IMG/VR virus record: IMGVR_UViG_3300001838_000086
Location: 1-58,154 of that record
DNA length: 58,154 nucleotides
Strand: one strand, 5' to 3'
Source of the DNA: a virus
Below are positions 24,963 to 58,154 of the stretch, one piece after another. Position numbers and translations under genes: made by a program. The notes below the pieces were generated by a model that worked only from the letters and a program-made list of their open reading frames with translations, was not told where the DNA came from and ran no database searches. Every line of letters starts with the position of its first letter. The stretch's first letter is position 1.

Positions 24963-24987
24963 AGTATATAACATCATCGGTTTGATT
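24963..24987 (-). promoter_or_regulatory. regulon promoter P1
   Basis: Minus-strand AATCAAACCGA followed after 4 bases by the TATA box GTTATATACT. First of five such promoters in this region. Confidence 0.6.
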
Positions 24988-25460: not shown

Positions 25461-25488
25461 ACTCTTTTTTTTATTATACTAACCATAA

Positions 25489-25526
25489 CCTTTATCTACC
25501 CTTGTTTTGTACGCCGCCTTATATAC
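25489..25526 (+). repeat. two degenerate copies of the CCTTTATATACC element
   Basis: CCTTTATCTACC (25489-25500) and CCTTATATAC (25517-25526), 28 bases apart, upstream of promoter P3. The same pair arrangement occurs upstream of P4, so the whole module has been duplicated. Confidence 0.5.
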
Positions 25527-25540
25527 TATGCCTATATGAT

Positions 25541-25564
25541 AATCAAACCGACAGTATTATATGC
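25541..25564 (+). promoter_or_regulatory. regulon promoter P3
   Basis: AATCAAACCGA (25541-25551) followed by TATTATATGC; the ATG at 25585 is about 25 bases from the TATA centre. Confidence 0.6.
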
Positions 25565-25584
25565 TATGATGGATATTGAGAAGT

Positions 25585-25776
25585 ATGAATGAGCCAACTA
25601 CAAGATACAAGGAAACTTGTGGGCATATCTTTGTTTGCCCCAAGTGTGACACTCCTCTAATTGAGGATAAGAGGGCAAGAATGGAAACTAACACAAAGTA
25701 TGTCAAGTTCTATAATTGCCCCCATGATCATTCGTTTATCGAAACTTGGTCAAGGACAAACTTTGAGGAGTTTTAA
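25585..25776 (+). CDS. small zinc-ribbon protein of the AATCAAACCGA regulon
   Basis: 63 residues with CGHIFVCPKCDTPLIED and, later, CPHDHSF: a C4/H-type zinc ribbon. The ATG at 25585 is preferred to the upstream TTG (25576) because it fits the leaderless spacing from P3. Unknown function. Confidence 0.6.
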   Translation: MNEPTTRYKETCGHIFVCPKCDTPLIEDKRARMETNTKYVKFYNCPHDHSFIETWSRTNFEEF

Positions 25777-25803
25777 CCCTCTCTTTTTATTGTGCTATCA
25801 TAA

Positions 25804-25842
25804 CCTTTAACTACCCTCATTATAGAGCAACCTTTATATACC
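25804..25842 (+). repeat. two copies of the CCTTTATATACC element upstream of P4
   Basis: CCTTTAACTACC (25804-25815) and the exact CCTTTATATACC (25831-25842), 27 bases apart, followed by TTGTACGCG. Matches the module ahead of P3. Confidence 0.55.
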
Positions 25843-25875: not shown

Positions 25876-25901
25876 AATCAAACCGATAGTGTTAAATAGT
25901 A
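25876..25901 (+). promoter_or_regulatory. regulon promoter P4 (drives the candidate RNA)
   Basis: AATCAAACCGA (25876-25886), 4 bases, then GTTAAATAGTA. No ORF of credible length follows. The predicted transcription start is near 25921, exactly where the first hairpin of the structured region begins. Confidence 0.6.
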
Positions 25902-25920
25902 TTATGGGTATTAGTAATTA

Positions 25921-26255
25921 GTCAAGTAGTTCTGCTACTTGATTAGGGTAAAGTGGGTTTCTGATATTTCCCACTGTTTTCAGGCTTTAGAGAGTTGAAG
26001 CACCCGATAACTCTCAACTTAAAGTAATGGAGCTCTAGGTGGGTGGAATGACACCAAGGGCGGGCACACGAAAGAGGCAAGGAATGATTTCTGACAGAAA
26101 AGGGCTTCTTATCAGTGTGATAAGAACTGTTGTATGGTATGCAACAGAGCCCGCTACAAAGATAAGAGCTACAGCCAAAAGGCACAAGAACGAGGCGTTT
26201 ACAGCGTAGGCTATGGCTTACGGAAGTATAGGCACGCCTACCATTACTTTTTTAC
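25921..26255 (+). ncRNA. candidate large structured non-coding RNA
   Basis: A GC-richer stretch in an AT-rich genome, with many perfect stems in order: TCAAGTAG/CTACTTGA (25922-25929, 25935-25942), AGTGGG/CCCACT (25952-25957, 25970-25975), GAGAGTT/AACTCTC (25990-25996, 26009-26015), GGTG/CACC (26042-26045, 26052-26055), the long-range GCGGGC/GCCCGC (26060-26065, 26149-26154) enclosing TTCTTATC/GATAAGAA (26106-26113, 26119-26126) and CTGTTG/CAACAG (26127-26132, 26142-26147), and finally GTAGGC/GCCTAC (26206-26211, 26236-26241) followed by a T-run. It starts at the expected start of promoter P4. Small overlapping frames (about 40-80 codons) exist but agree on no frame. No known RNA family recognised. 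Confidence 0.6.
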
Positions 26256-26267
26256 TATTCGCCCTAA

Positions 26268-26489
26268 CCTTTATATACCGTTATTATTGACATACTCCAA
26301 CAACAACCTTTATATACCCTTATTCCAGACCAGAACCTTTATATACCCTCAGTTCGAACATAACCTTTATATACCGTCACTTTAGAGTTGTACACGCGAT
26401 TCGTGGTGGGGTGGCGATACCTTTATATACCGTTAAAAAAAAATAAAAACCTTTATATACCCTTGTATGAGCCATAACCTTTATATACC
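26268..26489 (+). repeat. array of seven exact CCTTTATATACC core-promoter elements
   Basis: Copies begin at 26268, 26307, 26336, 26364, 26420, 26450 and 26478. Most intervals are 28-30 bases and one is 56, i.e. twice 28. Each is preceded by AA or TA and followed by CTT or GTT, forming AACCTTTATATACCSTT. The sequences between copies differ. The same string serves as TATA region of ordinary genes (for example TAACCTTTATATTTT before 44141), so this is an array of TATA/BRE elements and not a CRISPR. Degenerate copies follow at 26555 and 26711. Confidence 0.75.
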
Positions 26490-26780: not shown

Positions 26781-28073
26781 ATGCCCCAAAGCATAACCGA
26801 CCAAACGGCAAACACAGAGAGCACCATTGTTTTGAATGAGGGTGAACGTATCCTTAATGGTGTCAATGGTTTGCAAGATGTATATTATAGGTCTCCAGAC
26901 CTATATCTAACAATGGAACGAACCGAAGAAGGTTTACTTCTATTCCTTAGAAGTGAATTCCTTGCTAGATATATATTGGAACATGGAACAAATCCAACAT
27001 TCTATGGTAGTAGATACCAACTCACTAGAAATAGTGTAGGTATGAGTGAAGATAATGGGTTTGTTAGATATATCCCAGCTCGTATATATAACAATAGAGT
27101 TCGTGGATATATAACTATACCATTCCACAATGTCTTATATGATATGAGTGATGGTATGGTAATAAACCAACAAGAAAGAGAAAGAAATGCTAGAAATTTC
27201 TCTAGGGGTGTACAAGTATTGTATACTCAACCAATACCTGAGACCTCTTTCAGAACAATTCGTATTGATATTCTGAGAGGATATGAGGAATTTATTAGAG
27301 ACATACAACGTGAATACATGTCTACTCATAGTGGATATAACTATCCATTAGTTAATCTCTCTATGAAATCAATACCACGAAAAAAGAATGGCACATTTAT
27401 AAAAGATGGTGTCATCTACAAAAAGATAACAGCTGTTAATACAGTAGCAGTTGAGTTCGAGGGATTCTGGTTTGATGGACATGTCCCAGATGGTGTGTAT
27501 AGTGATTGTAGTGTATCAAATGGACTACGACCTAGATGCCAATGTGAAGATAGAGATGCATGTCCCTCATGTAATGGTGTAATAGGTGAAGCAACTAGTG
27601 GCATATGCACACCTGATACCATAGATGAATGGATGGGATTGAATCACCCAGATAAAGTTGATGCATCATGTGGTATGCATGTACATGTAGGATTCAACAA
27701 TGACCTGTTAGCATACAGTAAACTCATGACACCTACATTCCATAGATACTTCCTCAAACGATTCAATGATTGGGGTAAGCGTATGAATATCAATGAGGGA
27801 TCTAGGTTCTGGGTAAGAATGCAGGGGCAGAATAGATTTGCTATGGATAAATTCCGTGCAACAAAACAATACCTCATGACACACAAAAGCGTAGAGAGAT
27901 ATACATTCCTCAACTTCTGTTGGGGTCTGCATGGAACATTAGAGAATCGTATGCTACCTATGTTCAATGAGTCACGAATAGCTGTGAGTGCAGTACATGA
28001 GTTCATTGATATAGTGAATTCATATCTAGCAGAGAACATAGATGAAGCATACTCTTACGAGGTGGTAGCGTAA
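26781..28073 (+). CDS. amidoligase-family protein (COOH-NH2 ligase)
   Basis: 430 residues. The glutamine-synthetase-like amidoligase signature is visible in the second half: VAVEFEGFW (residues ~222-230), DCSV, GEATSGI, the metal/ATP-site CGMHVHVGF (~296-304), RYTFLNFCWGLHGTLENRML (~375-392, the E-x-R signature). Before it is a 200-residue N-terminal domain of unknown type, and a Cys-rich loop (RCQCEDRDACPSC) looks like a zinc finger. Such enzymes form amide or isopeptide bonds on peptides or small molecules. It is followed two bases later by a glutamine amidotransferase, its known partner type. The substrate cannot be deduced. Confidence 0.8.
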   Translation: MPQSITDQTANTESTIVLNEGERILNGVNGLQDVYYRSPDLYLTMERTEEGLLLFLRSEFLARYILEHGTNPTFYGSRYQLTRNSVGMSEDNGFVRYIPARIYNNRVRGYITIPFHNVLYDMSDGMVINQQERERNARNFSRGVQVLYTQPIPETSFRTIRIDILRGYEEFIRDIQREYMSTHSGYNYPLVNLSMKSIPRKKNGTFIKDGVIYKKITAVNTVAVEFEGFWFDGHVPDGVYSDCSVSNGLRPRCQCEDRDACPSCNGVIGEATSGICTPDTIDEWMGLNHPDKVDASCGMHVHVGFNNDLLAYSKLMTPTFHRYFLKRFNDWGKRMNINEGSRFWVRMQGQNRFAMDKFRATKQYLMTHKSVERYTFLNFCWGLHGTLENRMLPMFNESRIAVSAVHEFIDIVNSYLAENIDEAYSYEVVA

Positions 28074-28075
28074 AC

Positions 28076-28903
28076 ATGTGCGTTATCATTCTCTGTGAGA
28101 GAGAGTTTCCTAGTGTAGATACCTTGAAGAGTGCCGAAGCTATGAATGGTCATGGTGGTGGTATTGCTTGGGTAGATAAAACAGGCAAGGTTATGTATCA
28201 TAAAGCTCTAGGGGCTGATGAGATACAACATATAATAGAAACAGAAGCACAACTACCAGCCATAGTTCACTTCCGTATCGCTAGTATTGGTCATGTGAGT
28301 GATGAGTTATGTCACCCATTCCCAATCACAGATGATAGTGAGGTGTCTCTTAGTGGTGAGTGTGATAGTGTTCTATTCCACAACGGAACGTGGGGTGAAT
28401 GGGACACTCATCTATTGAGTGCAATCACTAGTGGTAAATTACCCATGCCAAAAGATACCAAGCATATGTCAGATAGTAGATGTATGGCATTACTAGCTAA
28501 CACATATGGTAAGAACATTCTTAACCTGATAGCTGGTAAGTCAAATAAAATTGCAGTGCTATCTATCAATGGCATAGAGAAGTTTGGTGAAGGCTGGGTC
28601 ACACACAAATCTAATACATGTAGCAACGACTACTTCGTAAAGAGAGAGACTGTGTTTACCTATGACCCAATGAGTAAGGCATACTCATATACAATAGCCA
28701 ACAACGACAACACACAACACCATAACAAGAAGAAGAAAAAGAAAGGTAAGAACAAAACCTTTCAAGATTATTCTTGGAAAGATTGGGAGTATTCCCTTAA
28801 CAATGGTAAAGACAATGACGTTGATAAAGACATGGCTATTAGTAATGCATATGATGAGTATTGTTCCATGTATGATAAGATGTATGAAGGTGGTCAACAA
28901 TGA
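28076..28903 (+). CDS. class II glutamine amidotransferase (Ntn hydrolase)
   Basis: 275 residues. The protein starts MCVIILCE; Cys2 is the expected nucleophile exposed when Met1 is removed. Further family features are GHGGGIAWVDKTG (residues ~25-37), HFRIASIGHVSDELCHPF (~80-97), LFHNGTWG (~117-124) and SDSRCMALL. It would liberate ammonia from glutamine. The pairing with the upstream amidoligase (2 bases apart) suggests a two-component amide-forming system. The C-terminal 70 residues are basic and then acidic (NKKKKKKGKNK), probably not catalytic. Confidence 0.8.
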   Translation: MCVIILCEREFPSVDTLKSAEAMNGHGGGIAWVDKTGKVMYHKALGADEIQHIIETEAQLPAIVHFRIASIGHVSDELCHPFPITDDSEVSLSGECDSVLFHNGTWGEWDTHLLSAITSGKLPMPKDTKHMSDSRCMALLANTYGKNILNLIAGKSNKIAVLSINGIEKFGEGWVTHKSNTCSNDYFVKRETVFTYDPMSKAYSYTIANNDNTQHHNKKKKKKGKNKTFQDYSWKDWEYSLNNGKDNDVDKDMAISNAYDEYCSMYDKMYEGGQQ

Positions 28904-36669: not shown

Positions 36670-36852
36670 ATGTGTAGAGGCGTTTGTAGTACTTTTGAAA
36701 AAAAACCAGAAAAAAAATTTCATTACTGTCAGGGTTGCAGTAAAAGAATTTCTGAAGAAAATTTATTCCGAGAAAAAAAACAAGGTCGTTATAGATGTAA
36801 ATGTTGTAATGGATTGGTTAGAGTAAAGTATATCATTTATAAATTAAATTGA
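36670..36852 (+). CDS. small zinc-ribbon protein (thaumarchaeal MCRG type)
   Basis: 60 residues: MCRGVCSTFEKK, HYCQGCSKRISE, CKCCNGLVRV. Three Cys pairs in the same order as the 22847 gene and as many small proteins of ammonia-oxidising archaea. Its 3' end overlaps the convergent gene by 9 bases. Confidence 0.6.
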   Translation: MCRGVCSTFEKKPEKKFHYCQGCSKRISEENLFREKKQGRYRCKCCNGLVRVKYIIYKLN

Positions 36853-37071
36853 TTCCTCAGCCCATGCCATAGCGAATATAGCTTTCTCTTCTTGGTCATC
36901 ATCTAGTTCTTCGTCTAAGTTATCTATTGCTAGATGTATCACTTCATGTTGTATAGTCTTATAAATATCTTCTATACATTCATGACCATCTAAGTAAACA
37001 ATTATTCTTTTAGTTGAAGGAAAGAACACGCCTCTGTCTTCTCCACCTACACGGAATAATATGTACGCCAT
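36844..37071 (-). CDS. mini HExxH protein (metallopeptidase-like)
   Basis: 75 residues with TIQHEVIHLAIDN containing the HExxH zinc motif (HEVIH) and downstream Asp/Glu that may supply a third ligand. Sequence around it (RIIVYLDGHECIEDIYK) resembles small ImmA/phage metallopeptidase-like folds but is shorter than most. Convergent with the zinc-ribbon gene. Confidence 0.55.
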   Translation of the reverse strand: MAYILFRVGGEDRGVFFPSTKRIIVYLDGHECIEDIYKTIQHEVIHLAIDNLDEELDDDQEEKAIFAMAWAEESI

Positions 37072-54473: not shown

Positions 54474-57400
54474 CTACCAGTCTGTTTTTACTCGTTTTTG
54501 TTTGTTAGAGGTTTTCACATCAGATCCTTTCTTTGGAGTTTTCACTACTCTCTGTGTAGGTCTGGTCTTTACTTCTATACTCTTTCTTCCACTCTTAACA
54601 TTCTTATCCTTATCTGATACCTTTACTTCCAAGTGTTTGGTCTTTATGTATACCTTTAATACAGAGTTAGTAGTATGCTCATGAGGTACATTTGGATCAA
54701 AGTCTTTTATCTTTAGATCGGTTGTGTGTGCTCTAGGCTCATCTAATCTCTTTAAGAATGAGTTTACTAAGTTGTTATGAGGTACATTTGGATCAGTATC
54801 TTTGAAGTGAGCATCTGCTTTGTGTGTCTGTACTACCTTAGCAATATCCAAGTTGACTGTTTGAGTGTATACTACCTTCGCTAGGTCAGTATCCACTGTC
54901 TGAGTGTATACTACTTTTGCTACATCTAGATTGACATTCTGAGTTTTTGTTACTTTTGCAAGATCTGATAGTGTATCATGAGTGTATATTACCTTTGCAA
55001 TATCCAAGTTGGTTGTCTGGTTATAAACTACCTTCGCTAGGTCAGTATCTACTGTTTGCTCATGAGATACGTTGGGCTCTAGATCTTTGAATAGTGTGTC
55101 TGTACTATGAGTGTATACTACTTTTGCAAGGTCTAGGTTAGTACTGTGGTCATGAGGTACATTTGGTTCAGTATCTTTGAATAATGTGTCTGTGCTGTGT
55201 ATCTTAGTTACCTTGGCTAATACCGAGTCTACTGTCTGTTCATGAGATACGTTAGGCTCTAGATCTTTAAAGAGTGTATCTGTACTATGAGTGTATACTA
55301 CCTTAGCAATATCTAGATTGGTACTGTGGTCATGTGGTGTATTTGGCTCAGTATCTTTGAATAACGTGTCTGTACTGTGTACTTTAGTTACTTTTGCAAG
55401 TACTGAACTAGTACTGTGTTCGTATGGTGTATTGGGTTCTAGATCCTTGAATAGTGTATCGGTTGTATGAGTGTATACTACCTTAGCAATATCTAGATTG
55501 GTACTGTGGTCGTGTGCTACATTGGGTTCTAGGTCTTTGAATAATGTATCAGTTGTATGTACCTTAGTTACTTTTGCTAATACTGAATCTGTTTCATGAT
55601 GCCAAATTACCTTTGCTAGATGTAAATCTACTGATTGTGTATATACTACCTTTGCTAGGTCAGAGTTTACAGTATGAGTCTTTGTAACCTTTGCTAGGTC
55701 AGAGTTTACAGTATGAGTCTTTGTAACCTTTGCTAGTGTTGAATCTACAGATTGAGTGTATACTACCTTTGCTAATACTGAATCTACTGTCTGAGTATAT
55801 ACTACCTTAGCAACGTCAGAATCAGTTGACTGTGTCTTTGTTACCTTAGCAAGTACTGAATTGGTAGTTTGAGTCTTGACAATTTCATATGCTATATGTA
55901 TGTCAGATCTATGTGTTTTTCCAGAGAATTTCTGTTTTACTGTATCTGTACTAGATTGTCTGAAATCATCTAATCTCTTGAGTTTAGTATTGGTTGTTAC
56001 ATCTCTAAACTCTCCTAGTTTCTTAACTGCTACATCAGTACTATGAACGTATGGTGCATTTGGATCAGTATCTTTTAGTAATGTATCAGTCTCATGATGC
56101 CAAATCACTATTGCGAGATGTGAATCTACTGATTGAGTGTATACAACCTTTGCAACATTGGAGTTTATTGTTTGAGTGTATACAACCTTTGCAACGTCAG
56201 AATCAGTTGATTGTACTTTAGTTACTTTTGCAAGTACTGAATTGGTGGTATGTGTTCTAGGTTCATCTAATCTCTTTAAGAATGACTCTACTGATTGTAT
56301 CTTAGTTACCTTAGCAAGTGTCGAATCTACTGTCTGCTCATGAGATACATTTGGTTCTAGGTCTTTGAATAGTGTATCAGTAGAGTGTATCTTTGTAACC
56401 TTTGCTAGTGTGGAATCCACTGTCTGAATCTTTACATTATCTAATTTCTTTAATAATGAGTTGATTAGATGTATATGAGGTGCGTTTGGATCAGTATCTT
56501 TGAATAATACATCAGTTGCATGAGTTCTAAATTCTCCTAATTTCTTAACTCCAGTGTCTACTTTGTGAGTCTTTGTAACCTTTGCAAGTACAGAACTTAC
56601 TGTTTGAGTCTTAGGTATATCTAGAGTCTTCTTTAGTGAGTTTGTAGTATGCTGTCTAACTATGTTTACTTTTCTCTTTAATGTATCAGTCTTGTGTGGT
56701 TTTGGTCTGTGTAATCTAGACTCAGTAATATGTTGTCTTGTTAATCCTAATCTTCTGAGTAGTGAATCTGTAATGTGTTGATATGCTTGAACAGTGTATG
56801 ATTTATTGGTGTAAGATGTTGATGTGTATGAGAAGTCGGACTGTGCAAATGGTTTATATAACCTAGTGTTTGTTGTATGTTTCTTAATTCTTACAATATA
56901 GGTGTTAGTCTTGTTTGTAAGAGTTGTAAATCCTTTAACTCTAGTATTTGTGAAGTGTTTTGTAACTGGTTGGTCTACTGTGTAACTGATTGGAGTGTAT
57001 GATGATGGTGTGTATGAATCAGCTCTTACGGATTTTTGTCTCTGTAACCATGAGTTTACTAGATGTAATTTAACACTAGGTATCTTTGTAACTGTCTGTG
57101 TTGTATGTGTCTTACTAATAATTCTCTTGAAGAATGACTGTGTTCCATGTCCTACAATCTTCAATAATTCTGTGGTGTAAGAAGTCTTAGTGTATGAATC
57201 TCGTCTATATGAGTTAACACCAACTCTTCCTAGTGATTGTAATACTGAACTTGTAGTATGTGATCTTAGTCTAGCTCTGTGAGTAGAGGTTGCATGTGTA
57301 ATAGTTGTTCTTAGGCTCTTTAAGTATGAGTTTACTAGGTGTTTTGTAACTGGTTGGTCTACTGTGTAACTTGTCGGTGTGTATGATAGGCTCTCATATG

Positions 57401-58154
57401 AATTAGATAATACAGTTTTTACCTTAATTCTGAATGTATTTGTAGAGTGTATTGCTTGTTTAGGTACTCGTAATGCACTGTTTACAGTATGAACTCTTGT
57501 GGGTATTGCCTTTAAGAATGAATCTATATAGTGTGTCTTCCTTACAACTTCTACTGCTACGAATGATTTTGTAGTGTATGATTGTGCTGTGAATGAATCC
57601 TCTGGTTCTGTTATTACTGTTTGTGTCTGATGTAATTTTGCTACTGAAGATTTACGATATGTAGATGTTGTGTGAGTTGTTATTGGTTTGCTTAGAACTG
57701 AGTTAGTAGTGTGAGTTGGAATGTCTTCTACAGTGTAAGATTGTATAGTGTATGAGTATTCTGTAAATGAGTTTGAACGTATTCCTAATACACGTTGTAA
57801 TCTAGACTCGGTTGTATGTGTCTTTAATCTTGCTTTGTTGACACTTGTAGTATGTGATCTGACTACGCCCATCTTTGCCAAGTATGTATTTGTATAGTGT
57901 CTTGTAGTTGGTTGGTCTATGGTGTAAGAATCTACAATATATGATGTAGGTGTGAATGAATTAGATAGTGTGGTGGCAGTCTTTAGTTTCCATGTGCTTG
58001 TAGTATGTTGTTTAGTTAGTCTATTTACTAGGAATGATGTTGTTAGTTGTGATTTTACTATCACTCTCTTTAATACAGACTCGGCTACATGTGTTGCTAC
58101 TTTGATTATATCAGTTGTGAATGAGTCTTTATCATAGGAATCTCTGGTGTATGA
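54474..58154 (-). CDS. giant Ser/Thr-rich repeat protein (fibre/adhesin-like), main part; open at the window edge
   Basis: At least 1226 codons in the window, and the frame is open to 58154, continuing into the left window end. Two repeat types are seen. The N-terminal region (about 56.7-58.15 kb) has units of roughly 55-60 residues with SYTPTSYTVDQPVTKH, KSYLKSL and HTTNT. The C-terminal region (54.8-56.7 kb) has 11-13-residue units such as VLAKVTKTHSTDS, DVAKVVYTQTVDS and TLFKDLEPN. The protein ends with a Lys-rich tail (KSGRKSIEVKT, KQKRVKTDW). An annotation starting at a GTG (58064) is not a real start because the frame continues upstream. Role is unknown; gene order and repeats suggest a long variable fibre. 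Confidence 0.7.
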   Translation of the reverse strand, partial: SYTRDSYDKDSFTTDIIKVATHVAESVLKRVIVKSQLTTSFLVNRLTKQHTTSTWKLKTATTLSNSFTPTSYIVDSYTIDQPTTRHYTNTYLAKMGVVRSHTTSVNKARLKTHTTESRLQRVLGIRSNSFTEYSYTIQSYTVEDIPTHTTNSVLSKPITTHTTSTYRKSSVAKLHQTQTVITEPEDSFTAQSYTTKSFVAVEVVRKTHYIDSFLKAIPTRVHTVNSALRVPKQAIHSTNTFRIKVKTVLSNSYESLSYTPTSYTVDQPVTKHLVNSYLKSLRTTITHATSTHRARLRSHTTSSVLQSLGRVGVNSYRRDSYTKTSYTTELLKIVGHGTQSFFKRIISKTHTTQTVTKIPSVKLHLVNSWLQRQKSVRADSYTPSSYTPISYTVDQPVTKHFTNTRVKGFTTLTNKTNTYIVRIKKHTTNTRLYKPFAQSDFSYTSTSYTNKSYTVQAYQHITDSLLRRLGLTRQHITESRLHRPKPHKTDTLKRKVNIVRQHTTNSLKKTLDIPKTQTVSSVLAKVTKTHKVDTGVKKLGEFRTHATDVLFKDTDPNAPHIHLINSLLKKLDNVKIQTVDSTLAKVTKIHSTDTLFKDLEPNVSHEQTVDSTLAKVTKIQSVESFLKRLDEPRTHTTNSVLAKVTKVQSTDSDVAKVVYTQTINSNVAKVVYTQSVDSHLAIVIWHHETDTLLKDTDPNAPYVHSTDVAVKKLGEFRDVTTNTKLKRLDDFRQSSTDTVKQKFSGKTHRSDIHIAYEIVKTQTTNSVLAKVTKTQSTDSDVAKVVYTQTVDSVLAKVVYTQSVDSTLAKVTKTHTVNSDLAKVTKTHTVNSDLAKVVYTQSVDLHLAKVIWHHETDSVLAKVTKVHTTDTLFKDLEPNVAHDHSTNLDIAKVVYTHTTDTLFKDLEPNTPYEHSTSSVLAKVTKVHSTDTLFKDTEPNTPHDHSTNLDIAKVVYTHSTDTLFKDLEPNVSHEQTVDSVLAKVTKIHSTDTLFKDTEPNVPHDHSTNLDLAKVVYTHSTDTLFKDLEPNVSHEQTVDTDLAKVVYNQTTNLDIAKVIYTHDTLSDLAKVTKTQNVNLDVAKVVYTQTVDTDLAKVVYTQTVNLDIAKVVQTHKADAHFKDTDPNVPHNNLVNSFLKRLDEPRAHTTDLKIKDFDPNVPHEHTTNSVLKVYIKTKHLEVKVSDKDKNVKSGRKSIEVKTRPTQRVVKTPKKGSDVKTSNKQKRVKTDW

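Follow-up and report, generated by a model that had tools for sequence, protein, structure and literature searches.

Does a stretch of about 335 nt between the genes of a probable archaeal virus from the ocean encode an RNA that functions without being translated, and if so, is that RNA peculiar to this virus or one of a wider family? The DNA we analysed (hereafter the window) is the whole of the 58,154-nt IMG/VR virus record IMGVR_UViG_3300001838_000086. It encodes AmoC (Pfam E 6.5e-13), MCM and Rad51/RadA, a gene content from which we infer that it is most likely a virus of ammonia-oxidising Thaumarchaeota. A first-pass annotation, made from the letters alone, had proposed that positions 25921-26255 are a candidate large structured RNA, GC-richer than its surroundings, with at least seven perfect stems, a promoter of its own, a T-run at its end and no credible reading frame.

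A folded RNA behind its own promoter

The features described in that annotation are present in the sequence, and the observation is confirmed. An upstream motif AATCAAACCGA (25876-25886, plus strand) is followed after four nucleotides by a TATA-like box GTTAAATAG (25891-25899), and a start about 26 nt downstream of the TATA centre, which is inferred, would fall at ~25920. The same bipartite signal, (A/T)ATCAAACC plus a spacer and a TTATATA-like box, was found with the same spacing at 24987 (minus strand), 25071, 25541 and 26737, making five copies in this part of the window that are probably one regulon. The predicted transcript in this lineage runs from 25920 to the end of a T6 run at 26248-26253, a probable terminator. 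G+C is 0.45-0.47 over 25950-26249 against 0.33-0.40 nearby, but the first ~75 bases are not GC-richer (0.35).

That the stretch might fold no better than shuffled sequence had been named in advance as grounds for rejecting a structured RNA, and the folding energies went the other way. The plus strand of 25903-26258 folds to -114.2 kcal/mol against -90.5 +/- 5.2 for dinucleotide shuffles (z = -4.59; 0 of 100 shuffles as good), the minus strand less strongly (z = -2.88), and the core 26021-26250 reaches z = -5.58 (0 of 200). A search of Rfam, also suggested at the outset, returned nothing for the window at gathering scores, nothing for the region even at E <= 10, and no family for the homologues described below; 5S, SRP, RNase P and tmRNA were considered and set aside because Rfam gave no hit.

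Homologues in archaeal viruses and bacteriophages

Two contigs, L002 and L003, are near-identical to the window across the RNA, which is conserved in them with one change. A DNA search of contigs from viruses with related terminase/MCM genes, with no motif imposed, found the 3' end of the RNA in three diverged viruses (G003, G004 and G006), in which the flanking arms differ in sequence but still pair. A scan of IMG/VR for ACGAGGCGT..ACGCCTACC then added L207 (the G029/L207 virus, another with RadA/MCM), L210, L205 and L199 (identical to L228), together with mostly GC-rich, coding-like chance hits. The contig of L205 is a T7-like phage with a single-subunit RNA polymerase, that of L199 encodes a PolA-like protein and a tail-sheath-like protein (the sheath scores are weak), and that of L210 encodes a terminase and a DNA methylase. 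In total we count eight virus lineages, five of thaumarchaeal type (the window, G003, G004, G006 and L207) and three of tailed bacteriophages (L199, L205 and L210).

Because about two 20-letter hits would be expected by chance on letters alone, by our estimate, we tested the phage members on features that had not been used to retrieve them, namely a P1 arm pairing with the bases right after ACC and a P2 pair directly inside it. Among all pattern hits the eight lineages scored 11.3-16.0, with 0-1 of 60 shuffles as good, whereas chance hits scored at most 11.3, with the exception of two GC-rich coding ones, L219 and L225. A covariance model, R1, was built on six sequences; L199 and L205 were left out, since P4 was misaligned when they were included. 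L210 matches R1 at 66 bits but was one of the six, while L199 and L205 match at E ~1e-5, which is partly circular as they share the retrieval letters. R1 finds the RNA in only some of the related viral contigs, many of which are fragments, so that absence is not firm for those.

Searches beyond these lineages gave little. Nucleotide BLAST of the window, L199, L207 and L210 RNAs against the INPHARED phages returned nothing or only short, weak matches, two of them in tRNA genes. A scan of GTDB with an archaeal-type P3-P4 pattern, which could not have found phage-type members, gave 117 hits in diverse genomes, near our chance estimate of ~90, with none thaumarchaeal among the 80 titles listed; Thaumarchaeota genomes were not searched with R1. 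The 20-letter module had no hit in ~1550 GTDB genomes. Relaxed scans of viral sequences, allowing any P3 closing pair, R/Y inner P3 pairs or a longer P3 arm, gave only chance hits; one of these, L323, looked promising but reads by eye as an HNH-endonuclease-like frame.

Architecture and covariation

The members share one architecture, a three-way junction whose conserved part in the window is the 230-nt core 26021-26250. Closing stem P1 is a long-range, 10-bp helix between AAAGUAAUGG (26021-26030) and CCAUUACUUU (26241-26250), the latter running into the T-run. Arm P2 follows at once, pairing AGCUCU (26031-26036) with AGAGCU (26165-26170), which is itself followed by ACA. Within P2 lies a hairpin, P2a (26042-26055), with the stem GGUG/CACC around the hexaloop GAAUGA; in archaeal-virus members the stem changes (CUCG/CGAG, AGAG/CUCU, UGUG/CACA) while the hexaloop keeps A..GA. 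The rest of the interior, P2b (26059-26164), consists in the window of a GCGGGC/GCCCGC arm and inner hairpins and is different in every lineage. After a short joining stretch, which holds a small hairpin in some members, comes the module AACGAGGCGU...CACGCCUACC, identical in all eight lineages: AACG and the P3 5' arm AGGCGU (26189-26198, the arm at 26193-26198), and on the far side CACGCCUACC (26233-26242) with the P3 3' arm ACGCCU (26234-26239) and ACC. P3 is separated by an internal loop from hairpin P4 (26205-26222), in which CGUAGGC (26205-26211) pairs with GCUUACG (26216-26222) around a UAUG loop.

The first-pass annotation had also made its proposal conditional on covariation among homologues, and this was found. 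Over eight distinct rows, 12 of 20 core pairs are changed on both sides, including 6 of 8 counted pairs in P1 and all 6 pairs of P2; 96.9% of cells are paired against 73.9% in shuffles, with 34 cells against 9.4 shuffled, 25 further pair types and a covariation score of 0.637 against 0.151. None of 500 shuffles did as well on any of the five measures, and slid registers scored at most 0.09. The rows were cut to equal element lengths, the P2 arms were picked by complementarity, and the shuffles ignore phylogeny; P1 is the cleanest test because its 3' arm is fixed by position. In a separate count on six lineages, P4 was 100% paired with three pairs changed on both sides and a conserved G-U pair. 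P3 never varies, but its invariance is partly a matter of ascertainment, as the phage members were retrieved by the invariant letters and the relaxed scans, which found no variants, did not test every substitution.

All eight cores fold better than shuffles (z = -2.2 to -5.6), and unconstrained minimum-energy folds give the same P1/P2/P3 topology in the window, G006, G003, L207, L199 and L205, although the fold of L210 does not show P2 and that of G004 shifts P3. The window's lineage carries in addition three 5' hairpins over 25919-26015, with stems of 12 bp (25919-25930/25934-25945), 6 bp (25952-25957/25970-25975) and 8 bp (25990-25997/26008-26015); alone they give z = -2.2, and they are absent upstream of P1 in G003, G006 and G004. 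In those three viruses a TATA-like box stands 25-30 nt before P1, so that P1 is near the 5' end of the RNA, whereas in the window's lineage the promoter lies ~100 nt further up.

A conserved protein frame through the region was the remaining condition set beforehand for rejection, and we found none. G003 and L207 each carry one extra base in the P4 loop, which shifts any frame while P4 pairing is kept.

Genomic setting and tRNA genes

Gene order is collinear among the archaeal viruses, but the RNA occupies three different intergenic places within it: before the 430-aa gene in the window, between homologues of window 30197 and 33155/33490 in G003 and G006, and close to the homologue of 36844-37071 (minus strand) in G004 and G029/L207. 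At window 26781-28903 the 430-aa gene, which has no Pfam or PHROG match and by eye resembles amidoligases (CGMHVHVGF), lies next to a protein with a sub-threshold GATase_6 match. Directly downstream of the RNA, at 26268-26489, are seven tandem (A/T)ACCTTTATATACC(C/G) units, 28-56 bp apart and without credible ORFs between them, with a further copy at 25831 and degenerate ones elsewhere. This is an array of archaeal TATA-box-like repeats of unknown role, which could be recombination sites, a TBP-binding array or an origin. In the comparison of window 25488-25831 with L002 and L003, the 66-aa gene at 25576-25776 is absent from these two near-identical viruses, with the joint at an ACCTTTATATACCC-like repeat, as if these repeats serve cassette gain and loss. 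Elsewhere in the window, 54474-58064 (minus strand) encodes a 1196-aa protein made of many short repeats of the type TTDSVLAKVTKVHS/T.

In the phage members tRNA genes are near the RNA. In L205 a tRNA-Leu ends ~40 nt before P1, with tRNA-Ile and tRNA-Lys following within 1.2 kb; in L210 a tRNA starts ~10-15 nt after the P1 3' arm; and in L199 there is a tRNA-Tyr 1.3 kb away. Nested inside the P2 arm of L199 (2277-2410) is a tRNA-like element with an acceptor stem and T arm in the predicted fold but long insertions, which ARAGORN does not accept as a tRNA and of which a 32-nt part weakly matches a phage tRNA (E 0.3). No tRNA gene was found in the window or in the stretches of G003, G004, G006 and L207 that were read.

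Comparison with known RNAs

The closest parallels are GOLLD (RF01998) and ROOL (RF03087). GOLLD is encoded by phages and prophages near tRNA islands, with a constant 3' region, a less conserved 5' region and tRNAs sometimes inside the linker (PMC12286853); here P3-P4 is constant, the P2 interior varies and L199 holds the tRNA-like element. GOLLD, however, is often >800 nt and reported from bacteria and phages, while this RNA is ~145-340 nt, its cores are 145-260 nt and form a simple three-way junction without an elaborate 3' domain of several hundred nt, and the Rfam model does not match, although no positive-control locus was run for GOLLD or ROOL. As to a location at tRNA islands, the tRNA genes and tRNA-like element of the three phage members speak for a likeness and the archaeal-virus stretches do not, so the evidence falls on neither side; assembly into an RNA nanocage was not assayed. 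ROOL is likewise an ornate phage ncRNA near tRNA islands, of unknown function and thought to act as an RNA-only assembly (PMC12286853), but it is larger, with multiple pseudoknots, its Rfam model does not match here, and we have no evidence for oligomers. The likeness to these RNAs is in design, not in sequence.

T4 rnaC and rnaD (species 1 and 2 RNAs) are stable phage RNAs of 120-140 nt inside a tRNA gene cluster, and their function is unknown. They lack the P3 module, R1 found no match in T4 69000-74000 at E <= 10, and a relation was rejected. The phi29 packaging RNA (pRNA) is a small viral RNA with a three-way junction, but its Rfam model does not match, and the position and distribution of the RNA studied here do not follow the packaging genes.

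What the RNA may be

The interpretation in the first-pass annotation, a structured RNA with its own promoter, is supported, with corrections: the conserved RNA is the 230-nt core, the 5' ~100 nt being confined to the window's own near-identical lineage; the RNA is not unique to this virus but belongs to a family reaching into bacteriophages; and at ~150-340 nt it is medium-sized, well below GOLLD and ROOL. We read it, with fair confidence, as a stand-alone, trans-acting structured non-coding RNA of a viral family that is previously undescribed as far as Rfam and the searched papers go. The analysis itself demonstrates the three-way-junction core, compensatory change in P1, P2 and P4, the invariance of the P3 module, the changing genome position, a regular promoter of the virus in front of the RNA and tRNA genes near it in the phage members. 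That it is made during infection from that promoter, and works as an RNA and not as a leader, is inference; neither expression nor function is shown, there are no expression data, and only eight lineages are at hand. It is also inferred that P3 is the docking site for a partner shared by archaeal and bacterial hosts, or serves self-assembly as in GOLLD/ROOL, and that P2 is a replaceable cargo or effector arm. We consider a real, selected RNA family highly probable and action in trans probable, but the translation/tRNA machinery as partner, although the most economical choice given the tRNA-gene neighbourhood, is no more than a tentative guess, and nothing here identifies a partner.

Of the alternatives, a decoy or inhibitor RNA against a host defence or regulatory factor survives best, but is unlikely. 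The patchy distribution, mobile position and compact constant module with variable arms would suit it, but there is no direct evidence (PADLOC was not run), and strict conservation of P3 across viruses of two domains is unusual for an arms-race element. Somewhat less likely is a self-cleaving or RNA-processing element that matures itself or neighbouring tRNA transcripts, as suggested by the three-way junction with invariant nucleotides at the junction and P3 and by the tRNA genes near it in phages, ~15 nt downstream in L210. Against this, no Rfam ribozyme family matches, tRNA genes were not found in the archaeal-virus stretches that were read, and the tightly conserved letters form a regular helix, unlike the cores of small ribozymes.

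A cis-regulatory leader, either riboswitch or attenuator, is also improbable. In the window, L207, L199 and L205 a gene on the same strand follows, and P1 runs into a T-run as in an attenuator, but downstream genes differ between members, the RNA occupies three different places in collinear archaeal-virus genomes, so that it is not a leader of one gene and an independent unit acting in trans is the simplest reading, in G004 the next gene is convergent and abuts the end of the RNA, in L210 a tRNA follows, and in the window ~520 bp with the seven TATA-like repeats and another promoter lie between RNA and gene. A packaging or virion-assembly RNA working like pRNA, docking to the portal/terminase motor, is less likely still: the RNA is viral, medium-sized, forms a three-way junction and is present in head-tail viruses of both domains, but in the window it lies 23 kb from the terminase (26 kb against 49-50 kb), and R1 did not find it in many contigs with 70-90% identical terminase, though several of these are fragments. 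A short protein-coding gene is rejected, since, although an 83-aa frame (26134-26385) is open across P3-P4, the P4-loop indels shift every frame, G004 has a stop just before the module in that frame, and P1, P2 and P4 change in compensating pairs.

Phage ncRNAs of unknown function near tRNA genes are already known; what is new is that this family crosses from archaeal viruses to bacteriophages. We found no report of a structured ncRNA in this virus group, no paper containing the motif letters and no Rfam family that covers the RNA. With covariation support, an invariant module and members in both groups of viruses, the family makes the question of which partner P3 binds open to direct experiment, provides a covariance model that can be used at once to search metatranscriptomes of ammonia-oxidising archaea, and offers a small and tractable analogue of the puzzling GOLLD and ROOL RNAs. 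It is possible, though we hold this only tentatively, that the invariant P3 helix binds a universally conserved cellular machine (the ribosome or tRNA-handling apparatus), or its own copies, while a replaceable P2 arm carries the effector or cargo, in one phage a tRNA-like element. The RNA would then be a cross-domain viral device, either spread between archaeal viruses and phages by gene transfer or very old.
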